From contig JAOZPE010000024.1 in NCBI GenBank assembly GCA_029932915.1, positions 1 through 43,683 on the forward strand: 43,683 nucleotides of DNA, given 5' to 3'. Shown in pieces: positions 35,642 to 38,415 of the stretch; position 1 is the stretch's first letter; the number at the start of each line of letters is the position of its first letter. Source of the stretch: Candidatus Krumholzibacteriia bacterium. Its GTDB lineage: Bacteria > Krumholzibacteriota > Krumholzibacteriia > JAJRXK01. The translations under genes were made by a program, and so were the position numbers. The notes under the pieces are model-generated. The model searched no databases, was not told the DNA's origin, and worked only from the letters and a program-made list of their open reading frames with translations.

Positions 35642-35851
35642 ATGAACACGGAAGTCGACGGACGGCAGCGGCCCGAGGATGGAGACCGGCGTCGAGGTGG
35701 AGATCGCCGACAGGGCGAAGACCGGCGCAAGGGAGAGGATCGCCGCAGGTCGAACGAGCCCTACGAGGGCGACGACCGGCGAAGCGGAGGAGACCGGCGC
35801 AAGAACCCCGACCGGCGCAGCGGAGAAGATCGCAGAGGCAAAGGCGCCTGA
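35642..35851 (+). CDS. small DRR-repeat charged protein
   Basis: The 69-residue ORF from 35642 is preceded by AAGGAG at a rather long spacing. The product is almost wholly built from the repeat G-x-DRR-x-G (GDRRRGGDRRQGEDRRKGEDRR, and again later), with no hydrophobic stretch. It is low-complexity and strongly charged with nearly balanced Arg and Asp/Glu, probably disordered. Similar G-x-DRR runs occur as tails or linkers in other bacterial proteins, but I know no function. An RNA-binding or condensate-type role is speculation. The start could also be the upstream ATG at 35534. It stands between the divergent DUF5916 gene and satD. Confidence 0.5.
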   Translation: MNTEVDGRQRPEDGDRRRGGDRRQGEDRRKGEDRRRSNEPYEGDDRRSGGDRRKNPDRRSGEDRRGKGA

Positions 35852-36033: not shown

Positions 36034-36783
36034 ATGGAACCATCACCGAAGTACTACGCCGTGCTCACCGGCGACCTGGTGAAGTCGTCCCGTCTGAGTG
36101 CCCAGCAGAGCCGTGAGGCCATGGATCGCCTCGCTGCGGCGGTGAGCGATTTCACGGCCGTCTTCCCCGATGCGGTCCACGGTGAGATCGACACCTTCCG
36201 TCACGACAGTTGGCAACTCCTGCTGAACCGCCCCGAGCTCTGCCTGCGAGCCGCCACCTTCCTGCGTTGCTCCCTCAAGAGCCTCTCCACGGCCGGTCTG
36301 CACTACGACAGCCGAGTGTCCATCGGGCTGGGGGAGGTCGAAGAGATCTCCCCTCGCATCTCCGATTCGCGTGGAGCCGCCTTCGTGAGTTCGGGAAAGG
36401 GACTGGATGGGATGGAGGGAGGCGCCACCCTTGCCTTCTCCTCCCCTCTTCAATGGTTCCGCGGACAGAACGCCCTGCCCCGGGCCGTCGTTCCCCTCCT
36501 GGATGCACTCGTTCTCGAGTGGTCGCCAGGGGAATCGAGGGCCGTGGCTGGATCCCTGCTGGGATTCACCCAGGAGAGGATCGCCCACCAGTGGCCTCCC
36601 AAGGCCGACGGCCGGCCGATCAGCCGGCAGGCGGTCACCAAGACCTTGAAGCGGGCTCGCTGGCGTCTGGCCGAGGAGGCCCTGCAATGGGTCGAGGAGG
36701 AGATCGATCGAGCTCTTCGGTCCGAAGAGGCCCGAGGCGATATCGACTCCGAAGGGGGAGTCGAAGGCCAGGGTGGGTTCTGA
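36034..36783 (+). CDS. SatD-family protein with C-terminal helix-turn-helix
   Basis: The 249-residue protein opens with YYAVLTGDLVKSSRLS, the hallmark N-terminus of the SatD family, followed by a DTFRHDSWQ segment and RVSIGLGEV. The last third (about 168-216: SLLGFTQERIAHQW...ISRQAVTKTLKRARWRLAEEAL) looks like a DNA-binding helix-turn-helix. SatD was named in the Streptococcus mutans sat operon (secretion and acid tolerance); its biochemical role is unknown. SatD genes are often next to DUF3307 membrane-protein genes, as here. GGGAGAG lies 8 bases before the ATG. A palindromic repeat array sits between it and the DUF3307 gene, a plausible binding site. Confidence 0.8.
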   Translation: MEPSPKYYAVLTGDLVKSSRLSAQQSREAMDRLAAAVSDFTAVFPDAVHGEIDTFRHDSWQLLLNRPELCLRAATFLRCSLKSLSTAGLHYDSRVSIGLGEVEEISPRISDSRGAAFVSSGKGLDGMEGGATLAFSSPLQWFRGQNALPRAVVPLLDALVLEWSPGESRAVAGSLLGFTQERIAHQWPPKADGRPISRQAVTKTLKRARWRLAEEALQWVEEEIDRALRSEEARGDIDSEGGVEGQGGF

Positions 36784-36815
36784 GGGAGACGAGACCCCGG
36801 GCTGGACCCGAAGAA

Positions 36816-36910
36816 TGCAACCTCCAGGGGTTGCATCTGGGGTTTGCAACCCTCAGAGGTTGCATCTGGGATCTGCAACCCCTGGAGTTTGCATTTCGGC
36901 CTTGCGAACC
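36816..36910. repeat. 29-bp palindromic tandem repeat array between satD and the DUF3307 gene
   Basis: Three inverted repeats of the form TGCAACC-N6-GGTTGCA start at 36816, 36845 and 36874, exactly 29 bp apart (the third has GTTTGCA). A degenerate fourth half-site TGCGAACC begins at 36903, again in register. The spacers between palindromes start TCTGGG/TTTCGG. The array ends 30 bp before the DUF3307 ATG. The layout suggests a multi-site operator or a series of RNA hairpins. The units are contiguous, so this is not a CRISPR. Confidence 0.85.
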
Positions 36911-36939
36911 CCAGAACCCGCCGCACGAAGGGAAGATCG

Positions 36940-37635
36940 ATGACCCCGTGTTTCCTGCTTCTCGTCGCCGCCCATTGCATCGCCGATTTCCTCCTCCAGC
37001 CCGACCCCCTGATCGAGCGCAAGAGGGAGAAGCGGTTCCTGCTGCTGCACGGGATCATCCACGCCGCCGTCTCCTGGCTGGCGGTCCAGGCCTGGGGCAT
37101 CTGGCAGTTGCCCGTGTACGTCTTCGTGGTGCATACCGCCATCGATACGGTCAAACAACGCTACGACGACACGGCCTTGGCCTTCGTCGCCGACCAGACG
37201 GCACACCTCGTGAGTCTCTTCGCCCTGGCCTGGTGGGTCTCCCACTTCTCCAGCCAAGCGGCCACGACCGCCCCACTGGTCTCGAGGATCGTGATCACCG
37301 TGGGTGGCTTCGTCGCCACGGTCCAGGGTTCGGCCTTCCTCATCGGCAAGTTCACCCGAAGACTCCAGGAGGAGAACGACCTCGAACTCGGCGGTCTGCG
37401 GGGCGGAGGGAAGTGGATCGGTCAACTCGAACGCGCCTTGATCTTCGTCCTGGTCTTCCTCGGACAGCCCGCGGCCATCGGTTTCCTCGTCGCCGCCAAG
37501 TCGATCTTCAGGTTCGAAGAGGCGAAAAAGCAGGAACTGGCCGAATATATCCTCGTGGGCACCCTGCTGAGTTTCCTGCTGGCCATCACCCTGGCCTCGG
37601 CAACCCTGTGGGCCCTGAAGCAGTTTCCCCTCTAG
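36940..37635 (+). CDS. DUF3307 membrane protein
   Basis: The ATG at 36940 (AAGGG seven bases upstream) gives 231 residues; the open frame to 36844 reads through the repeat array. It opens LLLVAAHCIADFLLQPD, the signature of DUF3307, followed by KREKRFLLLHGIIHAAVSWL and VHTAIDTVKQRY. Six or so transmembrane helices are apparent, with a charged cytoplasmic loop (KFTRRLQEENDLELGGLRGGGKWIGQLERALIF) also typical of the family. Function is unknown. Families pair it with SatD; the conserved His and Asp in membrane segments hint at ion or metal handling, but that is inference. Pcm follows 33 bp downstream. Confidence 0.85.
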   Translation: MTPCFLLLVAAHCIADFLLQPDPLIERKREKRFLLLHGIIHAAVSWLAVQAWGIWQLPVYVFVVHTAIDTVKQRYDDTALAFVADQTAHLVSLFALAWWVSHFSSQAATTAPLVSRIVITVGGFVATVQGSAFLIGKFTRRLQEENDLELGGLRGGGKWIGQLERALIFVLVFLGQPAAIGFLVAAKSIFRFEEAKKQELAEYILVGTLLSFLLAITLASATLWALKQFPL

Positions 37636-37668: not shown

Positions 37669-38415
37669 ATGAACACCTTCCTCACCCGCTTGCGAAAGAT
37701 CTTCACCGCTTCGCTGACTGCGCTCTTCGCCCTTCCCCTGCTGTTGGGCAACCAGGCATCGTGGAAGGCCCAGCGTCTGGCCATGGTCGACAAGCAGATC
37801 ATCCGCCGGGGCATCGACGACCCGCGGGTGATCGAGGCCATGCGCGAAGTGCCGCGGCACCGCTTCCTTCCCCCTGAGTACCGCGCCCTGGCCTACGCGG
37901 ACGCGCCCCAGCCGATCGGCTACGGGCAGACCATCTCCCAGCCCTACATCGTGGCCTACATGACTCAGGAGCTCGACCTGAAGCCCCAGCACAAGCTCTT
38001 CGAGCTGGGAACCGGCTCGGGCTACCAGGCCGCCGTTGCCTCACGCCTGGTCGAAGAAGTGTACACGGTAGAGATCCACAAGCCCTTGGCCGAGCGCGCC
38101 AGAAAGACCCTGAAGGAACTCGGCTATGACAACGTGCACGTGCGGGCGGGCGATGGCTGGGCCGGTTGGCCCGAGGCAGCGCCCTTCGATCGCATCATCA
38201 TCACCGCAGCCGCGCCCGAGTTGCCGCAAACTTTGCTCGAACAGCTTCGCGTGGGAGGAAAGCTGCTGATGCCCCTCGGTGAAGCCGGTGGTTATCAGGA
38301 ACTGGTGCTGGTGGAGAAGACCCAGGAGGGAAAATACACCACCCACAAGCTCCTGCCGGTGCGCTTCGTTCCGGTCACCGGAGAACATCTGCACAATGAC
38401 CCGGAGCGCCGATGA
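37669..38415 (+). CDS. pcm: protein-L-isoaspartate O-methyltransferase, exported form
   Basis: The 248-residue protein shows the PCMT domain from about 39: REVPRHRFLPPE, GYGQTISQPYIVAYM (substrate loop, 87-95 region), SAM motif I ELGTGSGYQ (112-120) and the closing VRFVPVTGE. It methylates isoaspartyl residues so that damaged proteins can return to Asp. Unlike the cytoplasmic E. coli enzyme (208 residues), it has about 38 extra N-terminal residues with a basic then hydrophobic segment (RLRKIFTASLTALFALPLLLG), a signal peptide or anchor. The long start is supported by GGGAGG five bases upstream; the internal ATG at 37783 has no ribosome binding site. It would act in the periplasm, where its methyl donor supply is unclear. 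Confidence 0.88.
   Translation: MNTFLTRLRKIFTASLTALFALPLLLGNQASWKAQRLAMVDKQIIRRGIDDPRVIEAMREVPRHRFLPPEYRALAYADAPQPIGYGQTISQPYIVAYMTQELDLKPQHKLFELGTGSGYQAAVASRLVEEVYTVEIHKPLAERARKTLKELGYDNVHVRAGDGWAGWPEAAPFDRIIITAAAPELPQTLLEQLRVGGKLLMPLGEAGGYQELVLVEKTQEGKYTTHKLLPVRFVPVTGEHLHNDPERR

Follow-up and report, generated by a model that had tools for sequence, protein, structure and literature searches.

The window analyzed here is a 43,683-nt stretch of DNA from a Candidatus Krumholzibacteriia bacterium, and the locus of interest within it pairs a gene for a 249 aa SatD-like protein (36034..36783, forward strand; open reading frame, AF2 model, Foldseek and a profile match) with a gene for a 231 aa DUF3307 membrane protein (36940..37635, forward strand; PF11750 match and AF2 model). 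Between the two genes three palindromes begin at 36816, 36845 and 36874, in exact 29-bp steps. As putative operator sites without strand, the first, TGCAACC-TCCAGG-GGTTGCA (36816..36835), and the second, TGCAACC-CTCAGA-GGTTGCA (36845..36864), are perfect 7-6-7 palindromes when read in the sequence, and the third, TGCAACC-CCTGGA-GTTTGCA (36874..36893), carries one mismatch. A degenerate fourth site stands in register at 36903..36922, likewise without strand; its left half, TGCGAAC (36903-36909), matches at 5/7 positions and its right half is lost (2/7), making it weak on its own. Both the three-palindrome array and the in-register fourth half-site are thus as the first-pass annotation had described them. 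A protein-isoaspartate methyltransferase gene (pcm) follows at 37669-38415 and had been proposed as a possible further target, but it is not conserved in the unit and does not adjoin the pair at another satD-like locus, L015, and was rejected as a member. On the other side of satD, a short ORF at 35683-35851 encodes (G)DRRxGEDRR-type repeats that stem from tandem 36-bp DNA repeats. An Rfam search of the whole window gave no match.

The array is recovered by TRF with a period of 29 and a score of 102, and its array statistic is 18.5, whereas about 100 shuffled upstream regions reach 9.7 at most. TGCAACC-N6-GGTTGCA has zero further copies with 0-1 mismatch in the 2.92 Mb genome, so the window array is locus-specific, far beyond chance; five sites elsewhere with two mismatches come close to the control level. 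Tandem short palindromes do look like dispersed intergenic elements of the REP/BIME or MITE type, which might stand here by chance, and a whole-genome search had been proposed. Such elements should occur in many unlinked copies, which the search excludes in this genome, and the pattern is tied to satD across phyla with differing letters in the same geometry; a dispersed repeat is therefore hardly credible as an explanation.

The SatD-like protein was modeled by AF2 with a pLDDT of 93.4, and consists of a class III nucleotide-cyclase-like N-terminal domain (residues ~7-136), a helix-turn-helix (HTH; 165-207) and a long C-terminal helix. The predicted HTH helices span residues 165-175, 180-186 and 198-207, in agreement with the earlier claim that SatD ends in such a motif. 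With Foldseek the N-terminal domain resembles several class III nucleotide cyclases (E 2e-4 to 1e-3, TM to the target at most 0.60), among them adenylyl cyclase Ma1120, Rv1264 and soluble guanylyl cyclase, with the cyclic UMP synthase 7r65 ranked below them; GGDEF domains also appear among the matches. The family profile likewise matches Ma1120 (E 7e-4), and both metal-binding Asp residues are kept, D14 in 101/104 and D58 in 102/104 SatD-like proteins. Unlike the class III cyclases, the SatD-like proteins are fused to an HTH and lack the transition-state Asn/Arg pair, as residue 122 is R in 40, E in 34 and K in 10 of the 104 and no Asn is conserved. Filing the protein as a cyclase was rejected on this ground; the domain may bind a nucleotide without cyclising it.

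The family assignment is indirect. The window protein aligns full-length with its homologues, and PF16264, the Pfam SatD model, matches 11 of the 24 aligned (best 1.1e-10), which establishes homology to the SatD family, although the window protein itself lies below detection, with no match even at E 10. The earlier name SatD therefore holds at the level of the family and not of a direct match, and SatD-like is the accurate label. The adjoining DUF3307-type membrane protein gene and the GD...GD motifs are further points of likeness. No match was found for the window SatD-like and DUF3307 proteins in NCBIfam, for SatD or DUF3307 proteins from three loci in the PADLOC defence models, or for either family in the phage collection searched, and a genome_contigs scan gave one locus only. 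A second SatD-like gene in the same genome (G000:C47:52508-53038, locus L033) is the only PF16264 match there; DUF3307 does not adjoin it, its array is not significant, and TTGCTATT/AATAGCA-type repeats lie 5' of it.

The DUF3307 product is matched by PF11750 at E 1.5e-16 (61 bits against a cut-off of 23), and its AF2 model is all-helical (pLDDT 92.9), with conserved H, D, K and Q residues; a fold search against the PDB gave no match with E <1. By profile, DUF3307 lies immediately 3' of satD in 87/104 loci, and several more were recognized by eye. At L052 it is lost and at L044 a C-terminal remnant (TEYLLLGSLLRSG) is left, and satD and the array are retained at both. At four further loci (L023, L026, L028 and L030) the partner retains only the C-terminal signature IGxLER...AAKxxxR...EYxLIGTLxS, and the N-terminal H-D-H motifs modeled by Pfam DUF3307 are partly or wholly missing. 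As the signature outlasts the N-terminal motifs in these sequences, it may be the C-terminal part that is essential.

The array was compared across 104 satD-like loci from the window's phylum and Bacteroidota. Lag analysis of 102 upstream regions, set against shuffles and against control regions 580-800 bp upstream, found a direct-repeat lag of 28 in 59 regions (12.7 in shuffles) and of 29 in 39 (9.7 in shuffles), and the control regions were flat, with no 28/29 peak. Among the double lags, 56 occurred in 35 regions and 58 in 21 (10.2 each in shuffles) and 57 in only 13 (9.9 in shuffles), which indicates that each locus holds either 28 or 29; mixing of the two steps within one of the 104 loci is rare. 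A search for the best 2-3-copy 7-6-7 palindrome array per locus, with steps of 20 to 39 allowed and a 95% shuffle level as threshold, gave arrays at 76/104 loci, and the step was 28 or 29 in 76/76, whereas the best steps in shuffled sequences were scattered over the whole 20-39 range. The first-pass annotation had asked for the palindrome to be sought at other satD-DUF3307 pairs, and it is thus found there with its geometry intact and its letters changed: TGCAACC, TACAACC, TATAAGC, TATCGGC, TATTACC, ATCAACC and GTTGGCC are among the half-sites. About 28/104 loci hold no array above the shuffle threshold; some of these arrays fall in flanks that were not read, or are half-degenerate. Three copies are usual in upstream arrays; the longest, at L075, has thirteen near-identical 20-bp palindromes in exact 29-bp steps, from ~410 to 90 bp 5' of satD. 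The choice of 28 or 29 correlates with SatD residues 125, 178, 19 and 122 and not with the base-reading residues described below, a correlation that clade confounds.

At most Bacteroidota loci the array lies 5' of satD. Its last dyad is often found 17-19 bp ahead of the start codon, and TAnnTTTG, the Bacteroidota -7 motif, is enriched near these upstream arrays (0.29 vs 0.057). Placement between satD and DUF3307 is seen in the window, at L015, at most of L053-L063, at L065 and L066, and in Sphingomonas. The window array ends ~50 bp 5' of DUF3307, and a scan for sigma-70-type promoters and terminators near it gave no recognisable promoter and nothing useful. In a small control, two DUF3307 genes without satD had no 28/29 repeat array.

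The strongest signal concerns the letters of the half-site. Mutual information was calculated between the seven operator positions and ~200 SatD columns over 77 confident loci, and the top four columns were residues 199, 203, 200 and 198, all of them at the beginning of AF2 helix 198-207, which is second in the HTH. In the window this recognition helix, RQAVTKTLKR, is encoded at 36625..36654 (forward strand), as placed by the mutual information over the 77 loci and by cross-validation. At residue 198, Q goes with A at position 2 in 61/62 cases and R with G in 7/8; Q199 goes with C3 and with A4, each in 12/12; A200 goes with A5 (29/33), S or T with G5 (31/38) and N with T5 (5/6); and K or R at 203 goes with C6, a G on the opposite strand, in 22/23, with Q, E or D mostly accompanying G6. 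This residue-to-base table is chemically sensible. When training was restricted to proteins whose N-domain identity was at most 35%, positions 2-6 were predicted from the four residues at 86%, where guessing the commonest base reached 57% and copying the nearest relative 49%, although position 4 was poorly predicted (40/59 in the strictest test). Since the columns had been picked on the same data, a cross-validation split by cluster was also run; it scored 0.66, while non-helix columns and the commonest-base baseline both scored 0.48, and residue 198 was picked for position 2 in 40/40 splits. Kinship alone cannot explain the code, because non-helix columns share the same ancestry yet predict nothing on held-out clusters. 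With training that left out its clade, the window combination of R198, Q199, A200 and K203 predicts.GCAAC., and the half-site seen is TGCAACC; the half-sites of both L015 and the window are correctly predicted in this way wherever a prediction exists. The recognition-helix residues thus co-vary with the operator bases as in an HTH factor, and R198, Q199, A200 and K203 are the putative base-reading residues of the window protein.

Four plasmid-borne satD-DUF3307 pairs, fetched after the code had been derived, served as an out-of-sample set. Vibrio lentus has TTAGCC-N6-GGCTAA sites in 28-bp steps 5' of satD, a 28-bp repeat and a related half-site are present in Salinivibrio, and Sphingomonas insulae has GTCAACC-N6-GGTTGAC between satD and DUF3307, followed after 28 bp by a near copy; no clear array is seen in Segatella copri (L134). 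On these loci the code is correct at most positions, but it misses position 4 in Vibrio (L135) and position 2 in Sphingomonas (L137), where R198 occurs with T2. The Sphingomonas satD-array-DUF3307 unit adjoins a gene annotated as a Pycsar effector (L137:3569-4072); Pycsar effectors are components of cyclic-pyrimidine defence.

The link between letters and helix bears on two further explanations. The palindromes could act as RNA, as leader hairpins of the DUF3307 mRNA that control translation or stability, and the folding check proposed in the first-pass annotation did give the array RNA an energy of -70.5 kcal/mol, far below that of shuffles (z -3.58); the window array may also be co-transcribed with satD. 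Any inverted repeat folds well, however, hairpins need no strict 28/29-bp steps, and in most relatives the array lies 5' of satD near promoter-like elements. As an RNA role would leave the half-site letters unlinked to the SatD HTH, it is ranked as very improbable. It is also improbable, if marginally less so, that the array serves as operator for an unlinked regulator and that SatD is merely co-regulated. Genes that lack a regulator of their own are common, and the connection between SatD and the array is drawn from sequence, but on held-out clusters the operator letters follow only the recognition helix among the parts of SatD, the arrays stay at satD where DUF3307 is no longer intact (L044 and L052), and the DUF3307 genes that lack SatD also lack the array.

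The best full explanation, which we hold with high confidence, is that the SatD-like protein, a putative one-component DNA-binding regulator, would have its operator in the adjoining array. Comparison of sequences and models shows the array, its fixed geometry, the helix-to-letter code, the linkage to the partner and the predicted fold. That SatD binds the array, as first proposed for this locus, is very probable and strongly supported by the sequence comparisons, given an array that is locus-specific, a geometry conserved across phyla and letters predictable from the helix. The C-terminal HTH would read the 7-bp half-site, with residue 198 reading positions 1-2, residue 199 positions 3-4, residue 200 position 5 and residue 203 position 6. 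We further infer dimeric occupancy, with each 20-bp 7-6-7 palindrome taken up by two SatD subunits and successive dimers seated on sites 28 or 29 bp apart, a spacing that would be characteristic of each SatD. The earlier suggestion that 29 bp is close to three helical turns, so that the sites present on one face, does not stand: the 28-29 bp pitch amounts to 2.67-2.76 turns (2.76 at 29 bp), which would rotate neighbouring dimers by ~85-120 degrees, and no significant array uses steps of 31-32 bp. The strict step instead suggests protein-protein contacts.

With the array 5' of satD, as in most relatives, SatD would autoregulate satD-DUF3307, and with the array between the genes, as in the window, it would control DUF3307. 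Repression appears the most likely outcome, by occlusion of the promoter or leader, with SatD released by a ligand, putatively a nucleotide, in its nucleotide-cyclase-like N-terminal domain. Activation of the operon through the array is unlikely, though it is the alternative with most to say for itself in the window, where an array that stops ~50 bp 5' of DUF3307, near no recognisable promoter, could be an activator site. Repression suits most relatives, in which the last site is centred ~18 bp ahead of the satD start and often lies over the promoter-like TAnnTTTG. Beyond repression by SatD, a more speculative and rather doubtful extension would make SatD a nucleotide-binding or -cyclising regulator. 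Alternating dimer contacts would let it polymerise along the array, and its N-domain would set the step. SatD and DUF3307 would then make up a self-sufficient switch for stress or defence: a nucleotide signal would free the operator and raise the level of a membrane protein, whether harmful or protective, and the unit would be the promoter-level counterpart of Pycsar-like cyclase-membrane-effector systems.

Autoregulated one-component repressors of the lambda or TetR/MarR type have tandem operators, and their genes lie beside their own palindromic sites. The satD gene similarly adjoins its palindromes, which at 20 bp are of dimer size; the differences are that SatD arrays usually have at least 3 sites (up to 13 at L075) at a strict 28 or 29-bp pitch, that SatD has a cyclase-like sensor domain, and that half-sites diverge between relatives. 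On the sequence evidence, the satD unit would therefore be an autoregulatory one-component operator system of a known type, with an unusual sensor domain and phased, co-evolving sites. The literature searched on SatD and DUF3307 yielded incidental mentions only and no operator or DNA-binding role, and the combination of a nucleotide-cyclase-like domain and an HTH on strictly phased arrays is undescribed in it. The satD gene has been tied to acid stress in S. mutans, and in Streptococcus pyogenes it is essential yet accessory (PMC11323703). Such a pairing of traits is what a regulator that keeps a harmful partner in check would be expected to show, and it is only suggestive of a toxin-antitoxin module; the streptococcal sat operon and the window gene are likened by the shared family name.

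SatD and DUF3307, widespread families of unknown function, hereby gain a testable role as a putative sequence-specific regulator and its conserved partner, with the half-site recognition code partly decoded. The pairing of SatD and array holds in distantly related bacteria, and it illustrates how site and recognition helix can diverge in step under a regulator whose array geometry stays constant. The regulon looks local, judging from one Bacteroidota genome (G126) in which the operators are found only at satD and as a second pair after DUF3307, with one lone 1-mismatch site elsewhere. This second pair is a two-copy array with a 28-bp step (L049:2853-2900, G126:C28:118312-118359), located just 3' of DUF3307 and before a convergent gene, such that the cassette is flanked by arrays; a single similar site is present in the equivalent place at L036.
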